Source: a virus
Strand: one strand, 5' to 3'
Length of the DNA: 33,451 nt
Virus record (IMG/VR): IMGVR_UViG_3300032675_000977
Span: 1-33,451 of that record
Part shown: piece after piece, positions 10,024 to 28,452 of the stretch
Layout: every line of letters begins with the position of its first letter
Numbering within the stretch: position 1 is the stretch's first letter
Made by a program: the position numbers and the translations under genes
The notes under the pieces: generated by a model
Told to the model about the DNA's origin: nothing
The model's input: only the letters and a program-made list of their open reading frames with translations
Database searches by the model: none

Positions 10024-11202
10024 TTAGAATGTATGACGTACACCTAACGCATAGTTGCTACCTGCAAGTGCTGGATTGCTACCTGCTGATGCCACGCTTG
10101 ATGTTTGTGTCTGACCATAGATAGCATACAAGTTTGTACGCTTGCTTAGCCAGTAGTTAGAACCAAGTTGAAATGCTGTAAAATTAGCAACTGGTTGGCC
10201 TACGCCAAACGCTGTTACTTTACCTAAGCCGCCTGATAACCATGCATCAATATTTGGTGTAATGTTACCACGGATACCAATTTGTTCAGCTTTACGTTGA
10301 GCATAGTAACCTGTGTTCAAAGTATCAGTAGCTTTACGGTTGATGTATTGAGCGTAGGCCTTCAAGATACCAAAGTCATATGTTGCAGCAACGTATGTTT
10401 GATTGTCTTGTGTATTTGTTCCGCCTGCGGCACCAGTCCACAATGCAGGAGCAGGTGTTGTTAACGTAGCTGCTGACTGGAAACTCTTAAGAGCTTGGTA
10501 GTTAGCTGTTACTAATAACTTTTCCCATTCGTAGTTAGCACCTAAGCCCCAACCACTTGCATTGTTAGTACCACCAGAAGTAGAACTAGTTTGTGTTGCA
10601 TTTTGATTGTTTACAACCAGCAACGCAGTACCAGTAAACCCTTCAAAGTTACTAGTTGTTGCTGTTAACGAATTTGAAACACGAACTGTAAATGCATCGC
10701 TTGAACTAGAGCTAGAAGTGCTGTTAGCATATGGGCCAGATCCACTATTGCCGTTACTTTGTGGATTCGATGCATAGATCGCATCGCCGACTAAGTTGTT
10801 CATTTGACCTGCATCTGTTAATGCTACTGCATTAAAGATCGGGGTGTACTGAGTACCCACTGCAACTTGACCAATACCGTTTTGACGGAAGCCAACAAAT
10901 GATTGACGATTGTTAAATGTACTTGCGGTTGAGTCAGACGGATTTAATCCTGTCTCAACAGTAAAGATTGCACTTAATCCGCCGCCTAAATCTTCACTGC
11001 CTTTAAAGCCTAATCGACTCGATTGTTCGGCACTATTCCCAAAGGCATTTGTATTTTGACTTGATGTAGCCGAAGTACCAACGCCCTTATAGTTAGTACC
11101 AATATAACCTACGTCTAACAAACCGTACACGGTTACGTTTGATTGGGCTTGCGCGAGGCTAAACCCAGTTACTGCTAATAGAGCTATTAATAGCTTTTTC
11201 AT
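10024..11202 (-). CDS. Gram-negative outer-membrane porin (Burkholderiales type)
   Basis: 392 aa. A Sec signal peptide (MKKLLIALLAVTGFSLAQA) should be cut after residue 19. The mature protein starts QSNVTVYGLLDVG, the standard first beta-strand of betaproteobacterial general porins, and contains SRLGFKGSEDLGGGLSAIF. It ends in an aromatic residue after alternating hydrophobic strands (YALGVRHTF), the signal for BAM-mediated assembly. It would form a trimeric 16-strand diffusion channel in the host outer membrane. It stands alone with its own promoter and terminator, like a transferred cassette. Phage porins are known from the lambdoid phage PA-2, where they alter the surface and block superinfection; a similar role, or improved nutrient entry, is inference. 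The low-complexity Ser/Asn loop near residue 160 could be surface exposed. Confidence 0.93.
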   Translation of the reverse strand: MKKLLIALLAVTGFSLAQAQSNVTVYGLLDVGYIGTNYKGVGTSATSSQNTNAFGNSAEQSSRLGFKGSEDLGGGLSAIFTVETGLNPSDSTASTFNNRQSFVGFRQNGIGQVAVGTQYTPIFNAVALTDAGQMNNLVGDAIYASNPQSNGNSGSGPYANSTSSSSSSDAFTVRVSNSLTATTSNFEGFTGTALLVVNNQNATQTSSTSGGTNNASGWGLGANYEWEKLLVTANYQALKSFQSAATLTTPAPALWTGAAGGTNTQDNQTYVAATYDFGILKAYAQYINRKATDTLNTGYYAQRKAEQIGIRGNITPNIDAWLSGGLGKVTAFGVGQPVANFTAFQLGSNYWLSKRTNLYAIYGQTQTSSVASAGSNPALAGSNYALGVRHTF

Positions 11203-12761: not shown

Positions 12762-13745
12762 TTACGATTTGATAATACCGTCCAGTAATCCAGGTTGGAA
12801 GAAATGTTGATATTTGTCATACAAGGGAGCAGTTAGTTCTTTGAACTTAGCTGTATCAACATCACTTAGTTCTTGATAAGTAACACCGATATCGTCATGA
12901 TTATCTTTAGCAGCAAATTCAACTGAGTCGTCAACTGACCATTGACGTTCTAATTGACTTGCGTACATACTTGCTTCTTCAAACGCTGCTTGATCAACTG
13001 CGTCCAATGATTCCCAGAATGCTTTACTGATAATAATACTAGTCAGGAACAAACTGTGTTTTGTGTTGATAAGATGCTTCTTATTTGTACCTTGGAATTG
13101 TGCTAGGTAACGTGGAATAGTTGTTTCTAAAAGAGTAGAATTAAAACCTTCTTCTGTAACTTTCTTTACATAATCTCTAATAGAGAAAGATTCAGGAACA
13201 CCGCCAAGTGCAAGTACAGTATCAACTGCTACAGGATTTGTATTAATTGCATAGCTTAACCCCTTCATATCACTAATGTCGTTGATCGGAGTTTCTGATA
13301 CTACACAACGGAATCCGCCACTGTAAGTAAATGCCATTCCTTTAGCCGGGCTTGTTTCTTCAATAGTACCCAATAGGCCTTTACCAATTGGTCCTTCAAA
13401 TACGCGACTTGCATGTTCATGATCACGAAATAAGAATGGCATTTCAAGTGCCCAAAAATCTGTATTACACCACATGGCCAATTCATTAATATGAACTTGG
13501 CTAATTTCAATGTTGCCTTGTTCCATTTCGATGATAGGACCGTTATCACGGTAAAAGTTACCTAGGTTGTTTTCGTAGCCAGTAAGTTTAGCTTGCTCAA
13601 AATAATGGGATGGTGTGAAAATTTCTATTTCAAATTTGCCATCGGTTAATTCAGCAATTTTAGCACTAAACGCTTCAGCTGTACGTAAAAATAGCTTTAC
13701 AGGTTCATGTGCAATTAGCCAGCGGATTTTTGTTGTTTGACTCAT
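12762..13745 (-). CDS. TRAP-type solute-binding protein (DctP-like), no signal peptide
   Basis: 327 aa from the ATG at 13745, which has a GGAGAA Shine-Dalgarno and lies after the late promoter; an upstream ATG at 13835 would precede that promoter. The fold signature of DctP-family periplasmic receptors is clear: ALEMPFLFRDHEHASRVFEG, KGMAFTYSGGFRCV with the ligand-carboxylate Arg, then DMKGLSYAINTNPV and ALGGVPE. These proteins normally bind carboxylic acids in the periplasm, yet no Sec signal or lipobox is seen, so this one should stay in the cytoplasm or enter the virion. No DctQ/DctM membrane partners are nearby. It may sequester a metabolite or have been recruited as a structural or sensor protein (inference). 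Confidence 0.82.
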   Translation of the reverse strand: MSQTTKIRWLIAHEPVKLFLRTAEAFSAKIAELTDGKFEIEIFTPSHYFEQAKLTGYENNLGNFYRDNGPIIEMEQGNIEISQVHINELAMWCNTDFWALEMPFLFRDHEHASRVFEGPIGKGLLGTIEETSPAKGMAFTYSGGFRCVVSETPINDISDMKGLSYAINTNPVAVDTVLALGGVPESFSIRDYVKKVTEEGFNSTLLETTIPRYLAQFQGTNKKHLINTKHSLFLTSIIISKAFWESLDAVDQAAFEEASMYASQLERQWSVDDSVEFAAKDNHDDIGVTYQELSDVDTAKFKELTAPLYDKYQHFFQPGLLDGIIKS

Positions 13746-13786
13746 TTGGGGATTCTCCAGTTTCGTGTGATACGATTGTATAGTAT

Positions 13787-13793
13787 TATTTAT
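13787..13793 (-). promoter_or_regulatory. T4-like late promoter of the SBP-like gene
   Basis: Minus strand GATTCATAAATAATACTA; core ATAAATA. It gives a leader of roughly 36 nt with CTGGAGAA before the ATG at 13745. A TACAAT hexamer follows but no -35 fits. Confidence 0.55.
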
Positions 13794-13836
13794 GAATCTG
13801 AATAAAATAACCAAAATATCAATAAATTTGGGCATA

Positions 13837-14782: not shown

Positions 14783-16075
14783 ATGTCAACCAAAATAGAA
14801 CATACCTCTGCCGGCGGAGTCCGCTTTGAACCAAATAAAAAATTAGGTTACTATGTTGTTAATAACGAAATTTATTACAACAAGAACCAGGCCATGCTCG
14901 TTGGGTCTAAACAACCGGGTGATGTAGGCGGACTTAATAACGATCCTGTTCGCTGGTTATTCAACGAAGATACTTTTATTCGATTTCCGTGGCACGAAGA
15001 ACCTAATGTTCCATTAAATGAATTGTACCGCATACGTGCTCAACAGTTGCGCGACCAGTATGACTACATACGGTTAGAACTAAGCGGCGGCGCAGATAGT
15101 ACCACTGTAGCGTATGCGTTTTTATTAAATGGCATACGATTAGATGAAGTTGTATTTCGATATCCTGAAAAAGGTTCTAAGGATGTATCAAATAATCCGT
15201 GGGATACCGAAAGTCGAAATCATTTGAGTGAATGGGAATTTGCAGCTAAGCCATTATTAAATTGGATCAAAACTAATTATCCAGAAGTTAAAGTTACTGT
15301 ACACGATTTTACCGATAACATAGTCAATGAAAAAACCAATGATGAAAATTGGATTTACAAAACACGACACTATATACATCCTGGTCATGTGCATAAGCAC
15401 ACAATAGATAAAGAATTGGCTGACACCGGCAAGCGTATTGCTGTTGTTTTCGGCATTGACAAACCCAAGGTTTGTATCAAGGACAGTAAATTCTTTATGT
15501 ATTTTGTTGATAGTCAAGCAAGCAATAATCACCCCGAGATTGGTGACTACACCAATATTACCAACGAATTCTTCTACTGGTCACCCGATGCTTGCGAGTT
15601 ACTGGCTAAACAGGCACACATGATTAAGAATTGGTTTAGTATGCCGGCACACTATGCCATGAGTCATATCCTGCAATGGCCCAACCATGATTATAGTACT
15701 CGCACATTCCGAGAACAAATTCTCAAACCTATCATCTATTCTGACTACGATTTTAATACCTTCCAAACTGCTAAGAGTACTACTGCTATTAATGCAGAGA
15801 TGGATACATGGTTCTTTACAAATTTTAAAGATACTGATTTATATGCAACTTGGACAGCTGGCGTAGATTATTTAAAAACAAATCTTGACAGCAGATACTT
15901 TCAATACTATCGTAACTGTGTAAGTGATCTTAAACAATACCAAACTCCATTTTATTATATCGGAGATAGTACTATACCAGTTGCTAATAAACCGTTTTGT
16001 GTATCAAAGCAAGAAATACTCAATGATCAAACTACCTACGTACATTGTATACGTGGTAAACTGTCAATTTATTAG
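14783..16075 (+). CDS. PP-loop (N-type ATP pyrophosphatase) protein
   Basis: 430 aa, one of only two plus-strand genes. The PP-loop motif ELSGGADST at residues 99-107 is followed by a helix and FRYPEKGS, as in adenine-nucleotide alpha-hydrolases (PAPS reductase, NH3-dependent synthases, tRNA thiolases). These activate a carboxyl, carbonyl or sulfate group by adenylation and release PPi. No CXXC thiolase motif, NUSAM/THUMP domain or glutaminase domain is seen. The N-terminal 60 residues (GYYVVNNEIYYNKNQAM) look like a conserved beta-rich module but are unknown. A PP-loop protein of a different type is at 25162. The substrate cannot be inferred. Confidence 0.75.
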   Translation: MSTKIEHTSAGGVRFEPNKKLGYYVVNNEIYYNKNQAMLVGSKQPGDVGGLNNDPVRWLFNEDTFIRFPWHEEPNVPLNELYRIRAQQLRDQYDYIRLELSGGADSTTVAYAFLLNGIRLDEVVFRYPEKGSKDVSNNPWDTESRNHLSEWEFAAKPLLNWIKTNYPEVKVTVHDFTDNIVNEKTNDENWIYKTRHYIHPGHVHKHTIDKELADTGKRIAVVFGIDKPKVCIKDSKFFMYFVDSQASNNHPEIGDYTNITNEFFYWSPDACELLAKQAHMIKNWFSMPAHYAMSHILQWPNHDYSTRTFREQILKPIIYSDYDFNTFQTAKSTTAINAEMDTWFFTNFKDTDLYATWTAGVDYLKTNLDSRYFQYYRNCVSDLKQYQTPFYYIGDSTIPVANKPFCVSKQEILNDQTTYVHCIRGKLSIY

Positions 16076-21519: not shown

Positions 21520-21549
21520 AGTGTAGCATAGGATCTCGTTCCCTGTCAA
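21520..21549 (-). promoter_or_regulatory. Promoter at the head of the main tRNA array
   Basis: Minus strand TTGACA (21544-21549), 18-nt spacer, TACACT (21520-21525). Reads through element D into tRNA-Tyr and onward. Confidence 0.75.
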
Positions 21550-21562
21550 CACTTAATTCTTA

Positions 21563-21718
21563 TTATCTACGAGCTCGAGCTTTTTCAAGTAGTTGAGCTT
21601 GTTCCGCTAAACTCTTAATATATGCTTCTGCTCTGGCAATCTTTGCTTCCACCAATGCAACCTTCTGCTCCGATGTTAGCAAAAACTGACTATCTAAAAT
21701 CTTACGTTTTTCTAACAT
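21563..21718 (-). CDS. Small helical unknown protein (51 aa)
   Basis: Runs from MLEKRKILDSQFLLTSEQK to EKARARR. Heptad-like Leu/Ala/Glu spacing over residues 15-48 predicts one long, coiled-coil-prone helix. AAAGGATAAGGAA precedes the ATG. It lies after the terminator at 21737-21765, so it needs read-through or an unseen promoter. No family is recognised. Confidence 0.65.
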   Translation of the reverse strand: MLEKRKILDSQFLLTSEQKVALVEAKIARAEAYIKSLAEQAQLLEKARARR

Positions 21719-21736
21719 TTCCTTATCCTTTAAAAA

Positions 21737-21765
21737 CAAAAAACCCTGGGGTTTTAATCCAGGGT
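21737..21765 (-). terminator. Rho-independent terminator
   Basis: Minus strand ACCCTGG/CCAGGGT stem (7 bp), 9-nt loop, then TTTTTTG. It ends the transcript of the 53-aa leaderless gene. Confidence 0.85.
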
Positions 21766-21794
21766 CCTTAAAGTTTGTATGATTATTTTGTTAC

Positions 21795-21956
21795 TTAATC
21801 ATCGTATCCTTCATGGACCCCAATTCTAATCTCTGTTCCGCGATCTAAATTACTAGGATTACTAAACATCGCCGGTGCACAATTTACTGACCAATAGGCT
21901 GACACGCCTGTTTGGACTGTATGTTGTATGGACTGTTTAGAGTTCTGTAATTTCAT
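21795..21956 (-). CDS. Small unknown protein (53 aa), leaderless start
   Basis: From the ATG at 21956 (MKLQNSKQSIQHTVQTGVSA). The -10 TACAAT ends 9 nt before this ATG, so the mRNA would start within about 3 nt of it, the same geometry as the gene at 1-83. An upstream non-ATG start (21998) would overlap the promoter and is rejected. The C-terminus is acidic (HEGYDD). No family is recognised. Confidence 0.65.
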   Translation of the reverse strand: MKLQNSKQSIQHTVQTGVSAYWSVNCAPAMFSNPSNLDRGTEIRIGVHEGYDD

Positions 21957-21965
21957 AATATATCT

Positions 21966-21994
21966 ATTGTAGCTTATTGAGCTTTTACTGTCAA
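21966..21994 (-). promoter_or_regulatory. sigma70-like promoter, leaderless configuration
   Basis: Minus strand TTGACA (21989-21994), 17-nt spacer, TACAAT (21966-21971), then AGATATATT and ATG. Confidence 0.85.
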
Positions 21995-22060
21995 CCACCT
22001 ATTGGCCGATCAGTAATTTATTTATCCTTTTGTAAAAACTTTGTTACTTAATATAGTTCT

Positions 22061-22089
22061 ATTGTATGTTATTTATCTTTTACTGTCAA
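22061..22089 (-). promoter_or_regulatory. Second promoter after the symporter gene
   Basis: Minus strand TTGACAGTAAAAG... with -35 at 22084-22089, 17-nt spacer and TACAAT at 22061-22066. The first 13 nt (TTGACAGTAAAAG) are identical to the promoter at 21966-21994, so the two are probably a tandem duplication. The leader has AAAAGGATAAATAA but no start codon. Confidence 0.8.
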
Positions 22090-22093
22090 CCTG

Positions 22094-23545
22094 TTAGTAG
22101 CTCGGAGGTGCAAAAGTAAACTTACCATCTCTGGATAGACGTTCAACCAGTCCGCCCAAGAGTGTAATTGTAGCACTAACTATTAGACAAGTAAAGAATC
22201 CAACCAAACTTAAATTAACCATTTTGTTCAAACTGGCATAGCTGTATAATGGTACGCCCATGGCCAAGGCCAGCAAGATGCCTGTGACTAAACTGCGCGG
22301 TTGCAACCATGCAGGTCTAAACAATGCTACAATGCTGGGCACAATGAATGTCATGCAAATACTGCCAGTTACGAATCCAAAATACAAAATGTTTACACCC
22401 GGAATGTTTACCAACAACCAGCTTAGTCCAACTATGGCCACGGTTGCAATGCGGCTTGCATCAATTGACTGTTCTTCTGCGATTGTTCGAAATTGCGGAA
22501 TGATGTCATTGCTGATCAATGTAGTTACACTGGTAATCTGACTATCAAGTATGCTGGTCAATGCTGTCAACAACATAAACACAACCAATCCCAGGGCCCA
22601 CGGATCTAATAATTTTGCAATCACAGCAACATTGGTTAATTGTGCATTGGCAGGAGTTATACCCATACCAGCAGCAACAAATCCTAGTGTGCCAAATAAT
22701 GCAGGAGCTATAAAGAATAGTCCAGCGGCCGCAAAATAAGTACGTTTAATTTTGGTTGGATTAATAACAAACGCACGTTGCCAAAAGCTATTGTCCGACC
22801 ACGGTAAACTAAAATGTCTAAACAATAGATATACACCTGTTGTTAGAAATACTGTTAGTGCTTCAGGAGTGCCCCATAACGCACCGTACTGGCCTGTGGC
22901 TCCGTGCATACCTTGTACAATGGTAGCAAGGTCAGTCTTTGACCACACCAACGGAACAATTATCAATGCAGTTGCCAGTACAACTACCATCTTAAATATT
23001 TCTGTAACGTTGGTGCCTCTTAATCCTCGAAAAATAGAGAATACAATAGCACTAACTACCAAGAACCCTGCAGCAAGGTTCATGTTTAATCCTGTTAAGG
23101 TCTCGATTAGTTTACTACCGGCATAGATATTCATACTAAACGCTGTAATAGCAATTAAAATAAATGCAAGAAGATAGGTATTGTGCGCTACACGTCCATA
23201 ATGATTTTTGATATGTTCTGCAAATGTAAATCCAGTAGGATACAATGTTCTAATCTTGTGTGCACCGAATCCAAACAGAGCAAGGGTGGCAGTATTCATC
23301 CCAAGTGCCCAGAAGAATCCTGTAAATCCAAACTGATAACTCAGTTGCGGAATTACAAATAGGGCTGTTGCCCAGGTCCATGCTGCTGTCAGACTAAACA
23401 TGCCGCGAACTGTATCAAATTTTCTGCCGGCCAACAAAAAGTTTTCTTTTGTCTTGATAAGTTTTCCGCTAAATGCCCAGGTAAGTGTACCACATACAAT
23501 AAAATACGTAGCCATTAACGCTAATACAGTTGTTAAGTCCAACAT
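22094..23545 (-). CDS. Sodium:solute symporter (SSS family)
   Basis: 483 aa with about 13 hydrophobic segments. The N-terminus has the SSS start (helix, then ENFLLAGRKFDTVRGMFSL, matching the FFLAGR segment) and later AWTWATALFVIPQ and FAEHIKNHYG. LTALTSILDSQITSV at about residue 325 corresponds to the eighth-helix (LeuT-fold TM8) serine region that binds sodium. Families such as urea, proline and acetate symporters share this fold; the substrate cannot be assigned, but the closest look is the PutP/Dur3 group. It would sit in the host inner membrane. It follows the oxygenase gene by 3 nt, so it belongs to a late-promoter operon. Transporters are rare in phages. Confidence 0.9.
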   Translation of the reverse strand: MLDLTTVLALMATYFIVCGTLTWAFSGKLIKTKENFLLAGRKFDTVRGMFSLTAAWTWATALFVIPQLSYQFGFTGFFWALGMNTATLALFGFGAHKIRTLYPTGFTFAEHIKNHYGRVAHNTYLLAFILIAITAFSMNIYAGSKLIETLTGLNMNLAAGFLVVSAIVFSIFRGLRGTNVTEIFKMVVVLATALIIVPLVWSKTDLATIVQGMHGATGQYGALWGTPEALTVFLTTGVYLLFRHFSLPWSDNSFWQRAFVINPTKIKRTYFAAAGLFFIAPALFGTLGFVAAGMGITPANAQLTNVAVIAKLLDPWALGLVVFMLLTALTSILDSQITSVTTLISNDIIPQFRTIAEEQSIDASRIATVAIVGLSWLLVNIPGVNILYFGFVTGSICMTFIVPSIVALFRPAWLQPRSLVTGILLALAMGVPLYSYASLNKMVNLSLVGFFTCLIVSATITLLGGLVERLSRDGKFTFAPPSY

Positions 23546-23548
23546 TAA

Positions 23549-24238
23549 TTATCCTTGATTAATTTTATTACCAGTAACAACAAATATAAAATTTGTTTCG
23601 TATCCAAAGTTGCTTGTTCCGTGCGGCACGTTACGGAAGTTCCAGTTATATACATCTCCAGCTTTCCATTGCAGAAACTTGTTGCCCATTTGAATTGCTT
23701 GCCCGTGTGCCCAGTCCTGAAAAGGAATGATATAAATGCTGTGCTTATGAAAGTCCAGGTTCTTGTCGTAGACTGCTGTGGTAGTATCATCCACTTCCCA
23801 TTCTTGATACTTGTGACGATCCAGGTGCATCATAAAATAATGCCCGGGTTCTTCAACTTGCACACGAATACGAGTCGATGCTGGATCTAATTCCAAGTTG
23901 GTGCTTATAATATCGTAGATAGCAGTATTGCTTTCGCCGAAACTACGAATATACTTGTGCCCGTGCCCCGACACCAAATCAAAGTACTCTGCTAACCAGG
24001 CTTTGAATTGATCTTCGCTTACTTCACCGTCGGTTGTAGCACTGGTACGCTTGATGTAATCTGGACGTATGAATACATTTTCAAAGAACGCAGGCAATGT
24101 TTCATCTTTAAAACTGTTAATAATATATTCACAATGCGGTGCTAACTTTTCACCAAGGTTGCATATAGGATGCTGGGCGTAATCCCACTCCCATTCAATG
24201 ATTTGATTCTTATATTGGTATTCTACCCATTTTTTCAT
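23549..24238 (-). CDS. 2-oxoglutarate/Fe(II) oxygenase-like protein
   Basis: 229 aa. GHYFMMHLDRH (132-142) gives the HxD half of the iron-binding triad (His138, Asp140); NVPHGTSNFGYETNFIF (from about 203) supplies the distal His206. This matches aspartyl/asparaginyl beta-hydroxylase-like and related phage oxygenases. RIRVQVEEPGH before the triad is typical of the first core strand. Possible targets are amino acids, proteins or a nucleobase. It has the best T4-type late promoter in the window (TATAAATA) and is cotranscribed with the symporter, possibly acting on what that carrier imports (inference). Confidence 0.75.
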   Translation of the reverse strand: MKKWVEYQYKNQIIEWEWDYAQHPICNLGEKLAPHCEYIINSFKDETLPAFFENVFIRPDYIKRTSATTDGEVSEDQFKAWLAEYFDLVSGHGHKYIRSFGESNTAIYDIISTNLELDPASTRIRVQVEEPGHYFMMHLDRHKYQEWEVDDTTTAVYDKNLDFHKHSIYIIPFQDWAHGQAIQMGNKFLQWKAGDVYNWNFRNVPHGTSNFGYETNFIFVVTGNKINQG

Positions 24239-24282
24239 AATTGTTTAATTTCAGGAGTTATAAGGAAACTGCGTGTGTAGTG

Positions 24283-24290
24283 TATTTATA
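24283..24290 (-). promoter_or_regulatory. T4-like late promoter, exact TATAAATA
   Basis: Minus strand GATATAAATACAC; exact match to the T4 late core. Drives the oxygenase and symporter genes. It is back to back with a plus-strand late core at 24292. Confidence 0.7.
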
Positions 24291-24291
24291 T

Positions 24292-24299
24292 CATAAATA
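24292..24299 (+). promoter_or_regulatory. T4-like late promoter (plus strand)
   Basis: Plus strand TATCATAAATATTGC; core CATAAATA. Predicted start about 24305, short leader to ATG 24324. Confidence 0.55.
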
Positions 24300-24323: not shown

Positions 24324-24821
24324 ATGTTATACATACTAGAAAATATACATATCAACCCTGTAGAAAATCTATTCTATGGATCTGTGGAAAACAAATGGGA
24401 AGCAAAAGCATTTAAAGACCCAATTGAAAAACGTCATTTAGAAAAAGGTTCGTTTGCGTCTAACCAAACATCAGTTCTTAACGATCGTTCTATTAAAAAA
24501 CTTGCTACCGGGGAATGGCAACTTACTAACATGTTTAAATTTTTTGTAAGTATTGCAGCTGCTTCAGAATACTTCGATGATTTAGTGAAGCCTGGATCCA
24601 ACTACAGAGAACAACGTAAAGCATGGCACCAAGCACATGGCATTTTAAACGAAGCTAATGTACTCGACGAAGATGGTAATATTGTTGCTGTATTAAATTC
24701 TTGTCAAGCGCATAAGTGCATTCACTTTGGCACTTGCCCAACAGATGGGTTAGGGTGTTCTCTGGTACCTACAACAACATTACCGGGAATTTACCCCATT
24801 TATCATTTAACTACAATTTAA
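24324..24821 (+). CDS. Unknown protein (165 aa), plus strand
   Basis: Not recognised. N-terminal MLYILENIHINPVENLFYGS, a charged helical middle, and a C-terminal Cys/His cluster (CQAHKCIHFGTC then GLGC) that could bind zinc. Probably expressed late from the divergent promoter. Its TAA stop interlocks with the stop of the convergent minus-strand gene (shared TTAA at 24818-24821). Confidence 0.65.
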   Translation: MLYILENIHINPVENLFYGSVENKWEAKAFKDPIEKRHLEKGSFASNQTSVLNDRSIKKLATGEWQLTNMFKFFVSIAAASEYFDDLVKPGSNYREQRKAWHQAHGILNEANVLDEDGNIVAVLNSCQAHKCIHFGTCPTDGLGCSLVPTTTLPGIYPIYHLTTI

Positions 24822-25165
24822 GGGTTTTGTACTTCTGTTGTACCCATAAAGGTCCATCCTGTATTAGGTGGAAAAACTACATCAGTTGTATTTACTGCCC
24901 ATCCTTCAGTCGGATGTTTAATAGAAGAATAATACTGAACTGAATTTGATACAATTCTGCTGATAGATAAATTGCCAGATGCTTGATCCCAAGTATATGT
25001 TTCAGGAACTGTCATCACACCTTGTGAAAGAAGCTGAGTTTTTAGAGTGCTAATTCTAGCAACCGCGTCGGCTGAGTATGTTGAATTTTTATCTGCGTAT
25101 GCTTCTTCGCCCGATGCAAATGTTGCATCTGGTTTATTGTATACTGCGGTTATGGTAGTTGTCAT
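24818..25165 (-). CDS. Unknown protein (115 aa), virion-like composition
   Basis: Thr/Ser/Ala-rich and beta-patterned (TITAVYNKPDATF, SNSVQYYSSIKHPTEGW), with one central helix (DAVARISTLKTQLLSQG). This is common in small phage tail or decoration proteins but not diagnostic. It overlaps the PP-loop gene's stop by 4 nt and has GGATAATC before its ATG. No family is recognised. Confidence 0.65.
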   Translation of the reverse strand: MTTTITAVYNKPDATFASGEEAYADKNSTYSADAVARISTLKTQLLSQGVMTVPETYTWDQASGNLSISRIVSNSVQYYSSIKHPTEGWAVNTTDVVFPPNTGWTFMGTTEVQNP

Positions 25166-26334
25166 AGATTATCCTCTAATATTAATTTACCAAGGAATTG
25201 TCTGTCTTCCCGGCGTTTCAAAGTATATTTATTCCAATCTGTGTCTATTGCAAAAACTAATGACGAATTTGATAAATGTGAAATGCCAAACGACCCAGTT
25301 TCAGTTTTATACTCAAAATAATGATAATTGTTGTCAAAATCCAATATATACTTTTTAGCAAAATACTTTAAATCTACTGTGGTCATTTCTGCACGTAGAT
25401 CCTTGCTCAACATGCTCCAGCATTGCAATTCTTTACTAGCAAACGGTCTTAATAAAACATCGTCCCATAGTGTTTTAGTATCTGTATTTGTTAAATTATA
25501 CGAATAGCCGGGAATCTTCCTTAACAACACTTCATTAAATTTCATGTCAAAGTTTGCCCACCAAAACAAATCATATATGGTATTAATTTCCACAGGGCTG
25601 TAAGGAACAGTTTCAAGCAGGCGATTCACCCAATTACTTACCACTGTATCAATGTTGGGCCATCGCTGAGGACACTTTGAAATCCAACGGTTTTCTATTG
25701 CTAGTAATTGATTTAAATTTGGTACATTGCGCCATGGGGTTAATAATATGTCCGATTGATTTGCAAAGACTAGTTTAGCAATAATATTGTTTCCCATGCA
25801 TTGATTGCCAGCTTCTCCATCAATTACTATAGAGGTATTTACTGTAGTGGCATCTAATAAAAACGTGTTAATTATTTGCTGTTTAAACTTATCTTTAAGA
25901 AATGTATGATAAAAATATGGATTTTCTTTAATAGAGTCGTCATTGCATAATATTATTATGCGTTCGAGTATTTCTTTGGGCGCATTTCGTAAAAAACCTG
26001 TCATTATTGTTGTGCTATCAATGCCCCCAGACCAAGATATATAAATTGTTTTATTATGCTGTGCAAACTCGTTGCAATACCGGACTATCAATTCATCAAA
26101 TACATGTTCAAAAGAGTCTAGACTACCAAGATCACTGGCACCTGGCATCTTAGATATAGCTGGCGCTAAAAAATCAAAATTAGGTATTGCATCACAAGAT
26201 CTTGAACGTGTAAATGCGCCAGCATAACTAATTGCCATATGCGGGGCTACCCAATTTCCCACCTTTGTATTGTGTATTATTTCAGGGTCGTGCTTATATA
26301 ATTCATCCGCACGAAGATATATCAATTTAGTCAT
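25162..26334 (-). CDS. Asparagine-synthase-like PP-loop protein
   Basis: 390 aa. PP-loop ISWSGGIDSTT (SGGIDS at 102-107) followed at residue 172 by DGEAGNQCMG, which corresponds to the GDGxDExFGGY segment of the asparagine synthase C-terminal domain. It lacks the N-terminal glutaminase, so it would use free ammonia or another nucleophile, as in lasso-peptide and other amide-forming cyclases. The N-terminal 90 residues are unknown. It overlaps the upstream 193-aa gene by 8 nt and the downstream 115-aa gene by 4 nt, giving a three-gene unit whose partners may be substrate or scaffold (inference). Confidence 0.72.
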   Translation of the reverse strand: MTKLIYLRADELYKHDPEIIHNTKVGNWVAPHMAISYAGAFTRSRSCDAIPNFDFLAPAISKMPGASDLGSLDSFEHVFDELIVRYCNEFAQHNKTIYISWSGGIDSTTIMTGFLRNAPKEILERIIILCNDDSIKENPYFYHTFLKDKFKQQIINTFLLDATTVNTSIVIDGEAGNQCMGNNIIAKLVFANQSDILLTPWRNVPNLNQLLAIENRWISKCPQRWPNIDTVVSNWVNRLLETVPYSPVEINTIYDLFWWANFDMKFNEVLLRKIPGYSYNLTNTDTKTLWDDVLLRPFASKELQCWSMLSKDLRAEMTTVDLKYFAKKYILDFDNNYHYFEYKTETGSFGISHLSNSSLVFAIDTDWNKYTLKRREDRQFLGKLILEDNL

Positions 26335-27116: not shown

Positions 27117-27145
27117 ATTATATACTATTGATCGTTAAAGGTCAA
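27117..27145 (-). promoter_or_regulatory. Promoter of the tRNA-Met/tRNA-Leu pair
   Basis: Minus strand TTGACC (27140-27145), 17-nt spacer, TATAAT (27117-27122). The TGA stop of the 436-aa gene is inside the -35. Also serves the synthase-like unit. Confidence 0.87.
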
Positions 27146-28452
27146 GTACGGCGTTGACGTTCAGGACTGCCGGGTCTGCGTTCACGTACAGGTGGGGTAG
27201 CTTGTGTTACCGGCGGTGTACGCAAAGCAGGGATCATTTTCTTCAATTGAGCTTCGATGCTTTTGTTTTGCAGACCATTCATCTTACCTTGCATTACAAT
27301 GTGAGTAATACCATCAATACCCGCTTGATCGACTGCAATACCATTCTTTCGTGCCCAGGCTGTAGCATAGTTTGTGAATAGTTGAGTGATAGCGGCCTGG
27401 TTCGGTCCACGTTTTCCAGCTACCTTTTGTGGTAGGTCTGGAATTACTACAGGTGGCTCTTTGAAAGGACGCAAAGTTACTTGGCTGATAATTTGGCGAG
27501 CCTGTGCAGCTTTATCTTTACTAATCAAGTAAACACCCGGATCGTAAATTTGTTGAATCATGTCGTCGGGATTTCGGTAGTACTGCAATTCGCCTAGTGC
27601 AAAGTTCATTAACATAACTCCAGTAAATCCTGAATCTTTTTGATACAAAGCATAGTTGGCTTTAATATACTCTTGTTTAAAAGTTTCTAGATCGCCAGAT
27701 GCAAAGGCCGACACTAATTTATTAACTGAAATTTGATTTTTAAAGATGTACCCAAACAACTCTTTACCTAATTTAGATCTAGTTTCAGGTTTAGCATTAG
27801 AAGTTAATGTAATTAAACCTTTCAAACTTAAATTGCCATCGGGTATCGCACGAGACATATTGATGTTTAGATGCTTGGCAATAATACTTTCCACATTGTC
27901 TGAATGTAACAAACCAGGCGTTCCTAATCGGCCACCGCCACTTGATACTTCTTTACCAGCACTTGCTTTAACTTCAATAATATCGTCACCGATATTTAAA
28001 TCGCCTTTACCGGTAATTCTAATATACGGACTCATAACAGCAAGACCAAATTCTCCTGGTCCTTTAGCAGTTCCAAAGGTTACTCTTTTTAATTTATCAA
28101 ATACACGAGTTACAAAAGTACCGCCGGTTAATAAATCTGAATATTTAACACGTTCTCCAGATAACATTAATTTAACATCAACATATCCTGTTGGAAATCC
28201 GTTAATAAAATCATGCTTTTCTTGATATGTGCCCGGAGCATCGATAATGATCTGTGTTAAATCTGCCACATAACCTGCTGTATCAGTTTCCCGTTCTAGT
28301 GTTCCGCTAATACGGTCCGACAGCCCACTCTTATTGAGTACCGTAAAGATACGGTCCAACAATTCTTCATCGTCGGTTTTTTTAACTTGTTTAATGATGT
28401 CAGCCTTTAACTGGCTTACTGAATCTTCTAGTAGATTGATTAAATTACGCAT
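27142..28452 (-). CDS. Unknown 436-aa phage protein
   Basis: Starts MRNLINLLEDSVSQLKADII, a helical opening like other T4-type phage proteins of unknown role. A middle segment, NIGDDIIEVKASAGKEVSSGGG, has a D-x-EVK pattern reminiscent of PD-(D/E)XK nuclease folds, and GGGRLGTPGL could be a loop of the same fold, but I cannot confirm it. The C-terminus is basic and Pro-rich (ending ERRPGSPERQRRT), probably disordered and possibly DNA- or partner-binding. It stands alone between the NTase gene and the tRNA pair. Confidence 0.7.
   Translation of the reverse strand: MRNLINLLEDSVSQLKADIIKQVKKTDDEELLDRIFTVLNKSGLSDRISGTLERETDTAGYVADLTQIIIDAPGTYQEKHDFINGFPTGYVDVKLMLSGERVKYSDLLTGGTFVTRVFDKLKRVTFGTAKGPGEFGLAVMSPYIRITGKGDLNIGDDIIEVKASAGKEVSSGGGRLGTPGLLHSDNVESIIAKHLNINMSRAIPDGNLSLKGLITLTSNAKPETRSKLGKELFGYIFKNQISVNKLVSAFASGDLETFKQEYIKANYALYQKDSGFTGVMLMNFALGELQYYRNPDDMIQQIYDPGVYLISKDKAAQARQIISQVTLRPFKEPPVVIPDLPQKVAGKRGPNQAAITQLFTNYATAWARKNGIAVDQAGIDGITHIVMQGKMNGLQNKSIEAQLKKMIPALRTPPVTQATPPVRERRPGSPERQRRT

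Follow-up and report, generated by a model that had tools for sequence, protein, structure and literature searches.

The stretch of DNA analysed here (called the window throughout) comprises 33,451 bases of an IMG/VR virus record. It is fragmentary, encodes a UvsX-like recombinase and carries 29 tRNA genes, numerous metabolic genes, numerous glycosyl- and nucleotidyl-transferase-like genes and a porin. The locus of interest consists of a symporter gene (SSS), an oxygenase-like gene (OX), two promoter elements and their neighbours:

22094..23545, minus strand: SSS, an SSF-family cation:solute symporter of 483 aa, belonging to a DUR3-related phage clade.
23549..24238, minus strand: OX, a double-stranded beta-helix protein of 229 aa, a probable Fe(II)/2OG-type oxygenase.
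24283..24290, minus strand: late-promoter element TATAAATA, 44 nt upstream of the OX start codon.
24292..24299, plus strand: late-promoter element CATAAATA, facing orf165 and arranged divergently, immediately beside the OX promoter.
24324..24821, plus strand: orf165, divergently transcribed and outside the OX-SSS pair.
24818..25165, minus strand: orf115, which encodes a small protein and overlaps with the neighbouring PP-loop gene; in a 344-kb phage genome (G001, see below), SSS is followed by a relative.
25162..26334, minus strand: PP-loop ATPase, asparagine-synthase-like by motif only, a probable partner enzyme.

OX lies upstream of SSS on the same strand with a gap of only 3 nt, which supports the layout of a two-gene operon and agrees with the preliminary description of this locus, in which the two genes were held to be cotranscribed. 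This layout is not an assembly artefact, because it recurs in a contig from a different sample (L002), which shares the segment from the UvsX-like ORF through the PP-loop ORF at 14783 with the window at 100% identity, and because the pair is also present in a sister strain (L003). A 344-kb relative (IMGVR_UViG_3300019776_000324, hereafter G001) has a 99-bp terminal repeat and is thus circular. It encodes a T4-type gp23 (9.8e-98) and a gp55-like late sigma factor (1.2e-7), both of which are located in G001 and not in the window, which is a fragment. The best explanation of the locus is a late operon of OX and SSS in a T4-type jumbo-phage lineage.

OX is found directly upstream of SSS in seven lineages (the window, L004/L016, G001, L006, L007/L018, L011/L019 and L013), among which OX itself diverges by up to about 57%. 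Relatives of OX are carried by 12 viral contigs, and close relatives of SSS by 10 (63-74% or 100% identity), in addition to L013 (68%). Rather than being broken in all relatives, the symporter has kept its full length without disruption in several independent contigs (63-72% identity). Values of dN/dS were 0.16 (the closest informative pair) and 0.05 for SSS, and 0.07 and 0.05 for OX, in each case from two pairs, since synonymous sites were saturated in the others. Purifying selection thus acts on both genes, which argues that they are maintained for a function. The link between import and hydroxylation made in the preliminary description is plausible, because the pair is both conserved and under purifying selection. 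OX and SSS are not obligate partners, since three contigs (L005, L008 and L009) have SSS but no OX. In three others (L020, L021 and L022), OX is followed by a gene for a TctC-type periplasmic solute-binding protein and SSS is absent; because TctC replaces SSS there, OX appears still to be tied to solute uptake.

These exceptions lend weight to the main rival explanation, according to which SSS would be a plain nutrient-uptake auxiliary gene that, late in infection, provides host metabolism with more of a limiting source of carbon or nitrogen, with OX a mere neighbour. We consider this possible but rather unlikely, and judge in the same way its further supposition that the cargo is, for example, an organic acid, an amide or a polyamine and that TctC/DctP binding proteins and the porin assist. 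It is favoured by the relationship of SSS to DUR3-type symporters, by the TctC receptors encoded after OX or SSS in a number of relatives, and by the presence of both the porin and a DctP-like protein in the window, as well as by the three contigs with SSS alone. Yet the association of OX with SSS extends over seven lineages; the symporters, in turn, lie near PP-loop genes and not near catabolic ones, and neither a urease nor any other evident catabolic gene was recognised near the pair. Moreover, the DctP-like ORF of the window apparently lacks a signal peptide.

The DctP-type TRAP solute-binding protein is encoded at 12762-13835 on the minus strand (1.6e-32). Its likely start is at about 13745, where a GGAG ribosome site and CATAAATA are found upstream, and the missing signal peptide refers to the protein initiated there. 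The porin (10024-11202, minus strand) is full-length and of the gram-negative type, with a signal-peptide-like start. It had no relatives among 50,697 phage records; its nearest matches are in Burkholderiaceae metagenome-assembled genomes (MAGs; 44-57% identity), a similarity that is a hint as to the host.

An exact late promoter had been reported for the pair, and TATAAATA is indeed present before OX. As stand-alone evidence, the exact element was rejected: the window contains a single copy compared with 4.6 expected by chance, that is, fewer, and G001 contains 14 compared with 19 for the reversed control. The relaxed core ATAAATA and a positional test were substituted for the exact count. 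Based on mechanically called ORFs, 7 of the 11 copies of ATAAATA in the window are followed by an ORF start within 60 nt, compared with about 10% for other 7-mers of equal composition (P about 3e-5); in G001, this applies to 30 of 46 copies. The core also precedes OX by 50-79 nt in three of eight relatives (L018, L019 and L006), where it is kept though the upstream gene differs. For ATAAATA within 100 nt upstream of OX, P was about 1e-4 to 2e-5, which is slightly optimistic given that L018 and L019 are related. Late promoters of the T4-like cyanophage S-PM2 are of the NATAAATA class (PMC2984593), and the positional statistics support the action of NATAAATA as a late promoter in the present lineage as well. 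The promoter class of the element before OX is thereby backed by the positional test. Similar to the late promoters of T4 and S-PM2 (TATAAATA and NATAAATA, respectively), the elements share the core and their location upstream of ORFs, and they occur in a lineage that possesses gp23 and a gp55-like sigma factor.

The assignment of SSS as a membrane transporter holds: the intact protein of 483 aa matches the Pfam SSF family (PF00474) at 1e-15 over residues 36-409, above the curated cut-off. It additionally matches PHROG_20720 (5.9e-57, residues 27-463). In a PDB search using a profile of seven phage relatives, the DUR3 urea symporters were the top matches (2e-26), far ahead of SMVT (1.5e-6); NIS and SMCT1 were also found. 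DUR3 and UreA (PDB 9vim, 9j7c and 9x5u) are the closest relatives of solved structure, but they share only about 24% identity with SSS and comprise about 700 aa compared with its 483. DUR3 proteins are named urea-proton symporters, and the coupling ion of SSS may be either Na+ or H+. Following the DUR3 match, a function of SSS as a urea transporter was considered. Residues were mapped with Aspergillus UreA as the reference, leaving out Y388, and residue roles were taken from earlier work (PMC4077062, PMC9783183). UreA W82, W84, T133 and D286, a set that includes residues required for transport (PMC4077062, PMC9783183), correspond to W56, W58, T107 and D251 of SSS, which are invariant in the jumbo-phage symporter group. 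Likewise, T330-S331 of SSS align with the TS pair in TM8 of DUR3, so that the conserved Ser/Thr pair of SSF proteins is present. By contrast, in the phage symporters UreA Y106, A110 and N275 are replaced by A/V/I, N and L/F, and N279, T282 and Y437 by H, L and G/V, in the corresponding positions; this second set includes urea-selectivity or urea-transporter-conserved residues (PMC4077062, PMC9783183). Because the transport residues are kept and the selectivity residues replaced, we describe SSS as DUR3-related and have dropped the label of a urea transporter.

A profile scan of cellular genome contigs for a cellular origin of SSS gave no match, and the 369 genomes of the class that includes the porin-bearing Burkholderiaceae MAG contained distant SSF proteins only (best 2e-30). 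The preliminary statement that transporters are rare in T4-type phages stands for isolates, since relatives of the symporter were absent from 50,697 annotated phage records with the exception of a PHROG_20720 member in one unverified contig. It does not stand for the uncultured T4-type lineage, throughout which SSS is recurrent; a further 87 viral contigs or more carry the sister family of the symporter.

OX gave no match in Pfam, PHROG, NCBIfam, PADLOC or PDB sequence searches. Eight diverse members of its family have in common an invariant H138-x-D140 and distal H206, as well as R125, R141 and K159. A first, shallower AlphaFold model gave cupin sugar-phosphate isomerases as the best Foldseek matches (1.6e-5). 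This outcome, along with the lack of a 2OG profile match and of an Arg/Lys at the usual 2OG site, would fit a cupin-type protein (a sugar isomerase, an epimerase or a metal-binding protein) that is no oxygenase. We regard such an identity as unlikely, given that a second model, of moderate confidence and from a deeper alignment (mean pLDDT 75, pTM 0.74), placed AspH, viral and bacterial prolyl hydroxylases and PHD2 at the top (about 6e-5 to 2e-4), that the HxD...H set is invariant across the eight members and that OX has an N-terminal helical region absent from small cupins. OX is likely to be a 2OG-type oxygenase by predicted fold and motif, and to call it oxygenase-like, as had been done earlier, is fair. 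It resembles AspH and prolyl-4-hydroxylase (P4H) in its predicted double-stranded beta-helix fold and putative HxD...H-like metal site, but differs from them in having no detectable sequence similarity and no Arg at +10 after the distal His, and the Foldseek TM score against 2OG oxygenases was only about 0.4. The position at +10 is N216, and because the usual Arg/Lys is missing, OX is at most a putative user of 2OG. K159 and R125 are candidates for binding the C5 carboxylate of 2OG, with residues 147-163 forming the least confident part of the model.

In several relatives (loci L018-L023), the genes beside OX encode NifU/IscU, an A-type Fe-S protein, rubrerythrin, a class IV aminotransferase, a class II aldolase and a second 2OG oxygenase (2OG-FeII_Oxy_5).

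The match of OX to P4H, which acts on EF-Tu, also bears on the envelope changes that the preliminary description had offered as an alternative to import. Here, the symporter and the porin would block superinfection or prepare lysis through envelope remodelling or exclusion, and OX would hydroxylate an envelope or translation protein in the manner of P4H. Late expression, the porin and the many glycosyl- and nucleotidyl-transferase-like genes of the window are consistent with this, but the conserved SSF residues of SSS (W-x-W, the D286 equivalent and the TM8 T-S pair) point to real transport, and no link of OX to proteins was found. We consider this explanation very unlikely, and equally so a change in ion balance or receptor display as its basis.

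Import linked to modification, the reading that we prefer, draws further on the genes next to the pair. The PP-loop ATPase at 25162..26334 contains SGGIDST and G-E-[AG]-G-[ND]-Q motifs and has no Pfam or PDB match. Members of this family lie within three genes of OX or SSS in nine contigs (the window, L003, G001, L019, L013, L008, L009, L021 and L022). The PP-loop gene of the window is 80% identical to its counterpart in the sister strain L003 (7224-8384), compared with 94-100% for the neighbouring genes, a sign of local allele exchange. A second PP-loop ORF (SGGADST) is located at 14783-16075 on the plus strand of the window, and relatives of it are near the symporter in L009 and G001.

The group next nearest to the SSS lineage is PHROG_20720, which comes from MT836198-like contigs, is represented in at least 87 viral contigs and is currently annotated as of unknown function in PHROGs. 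Its members share 27-31% identity with the SSS lineage, and the two groups have in common an invariant Asn at the A110 position, D-x-x-FWQR in TM7 and PP-loop genes nearby. Of the 73 PHROG_20720 loci with a downstream gene, 69 have an SxGxDS PP-loop gene no more than three genes away, and in 48 it is the very next gene. Unlike SSS, this group adjoins terminase genes and is accompanied by PAPS-reductase-like and ParB-like genes; no OX gene was conspicuous in its surroundings, and it is not known to have a late T4 promoter. The cassette of these loci (L059-L138) consists of the symporter, a PAPS-reductase-like PP-loop gene, a ParB-like gene, a second PAPS-reductase-like gene and another ParB-like gene, with the terminase adjoining; the second PAPS-reductase-like protein has weak similarity to DndC/BrxP. 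A phylogenetic tree unites the SSS lineage and PHROG_20720 in a single clade (97/95), to the exclusion of the cellular SSF proteins included. Because these were a thin sample, composed of E. coli SSF proteins, two DUR3 sequences and five matches from the 369 genomes, the phage clade is best regarded as provisional. That two branches of a single transporter clade each have PP-loop genes nearby, though of distinct families, is the strongest clue to function. The families are, however, asparagine-synthase-like in one group and PAPS-reductase-like in the other, so that a pathway shared by the two groups is at most a possibility.

Taken together, we propose that the late OX-SSS operon is, with the nearby PP-loop enzyme, an import-and-modify module, an explanation that we hold tentatively and place just short of an even chance. 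A gp55-like phage late sigma factor would start transcription at TATAAATA, yielding one message for both OX and SSS. SSS would reside in the inner membrane and use a cation gradient to drive the import of a small polar solute, probably other than urea itself. The nearby PP-loop enzyme, predicted to be adenylating, would activate or ligate the imported solute, and OX would either oxidise this same solute or hydroxylate the product after PP-loop attachment. Candidates for what the pathway finally yields are a modified nucleic acid, a peptide, a glycan and a metabolite. In a broader version, which we consider doubtful, the phage SSF symporters would constitute a clade of their own, partnered with PP-loop ATPases in a system dedicated to import and modification. 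Two unrelated phage groups, the T4-type jumbo phages and the phages with the PHROG_20720 cassette, would have taken up this system, to which the T4-type lineage would have added a late promoter and an oxygenase of the 2OG type, with the solute entering a phage product such as modified DNA.

Transporters in phages are already known as a kind, and a phage-borne transporter together with a PP-loop enzyme has a precedent in 7-deazaguanine import by YhhQ with QueC. The two cases share the notion that an imported precursor feeds a modification pathway of the phage, but the transporter fold and the PP-loop family are different, and no deazaguanine genes were seen here. To our knowledge, secondary transporters in lytic phages have rarely been reported. 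Literature word searches found no paper on phage SSF symporters, and symporters are absent from the text of papers on large freshwater phages, Limnohabitans phages and jumbo phages. A late OX-SSS operon and a PP-loop-tied clade of phage symporters in two phage groups thus appear to be undescribed in the searchable literature. A conserved and selected symporter under a late promoter, tied to two enzyme families and with a large sister family in a fixed PP-loop cassette, poses the testable question of whether phages import an external precursor for their own chemistry, and a functional lead on PHROG_20720 would reach many phage genomes.

Additional observations concern promoters outside the pair. 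Three strong sigma-70-type promoters (TTGACA, a spacing of 17-18 nt, and TACAAT or TACACT) are present at 21520-22089 on the minus strand, between the symporter stop and the tRNA array; since they directly follow the SSS stop, early-type and late-type promoters abut at this locus. In G001 (loci L034-L051), the distances from TAAATA to ATG are bimodal. For 24 genes they are 4-7 nt, so that the ATG coincides, or nearly so, with the expected start of transcription, and just one of these genes shows a Shine-Dalgarno motif; for a leadered class they are 17-32 nt, with nearly no distances of 8-16 nt. T4 differs in this respect, having no such distance below 9 nt. These observations suggest numerous leaderless late mRNAs in this T4-type lineage. 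In the window, orf436 (27142-28452, minus strand) starts 4 nt after ATAAATA and may therefore belong to this class.
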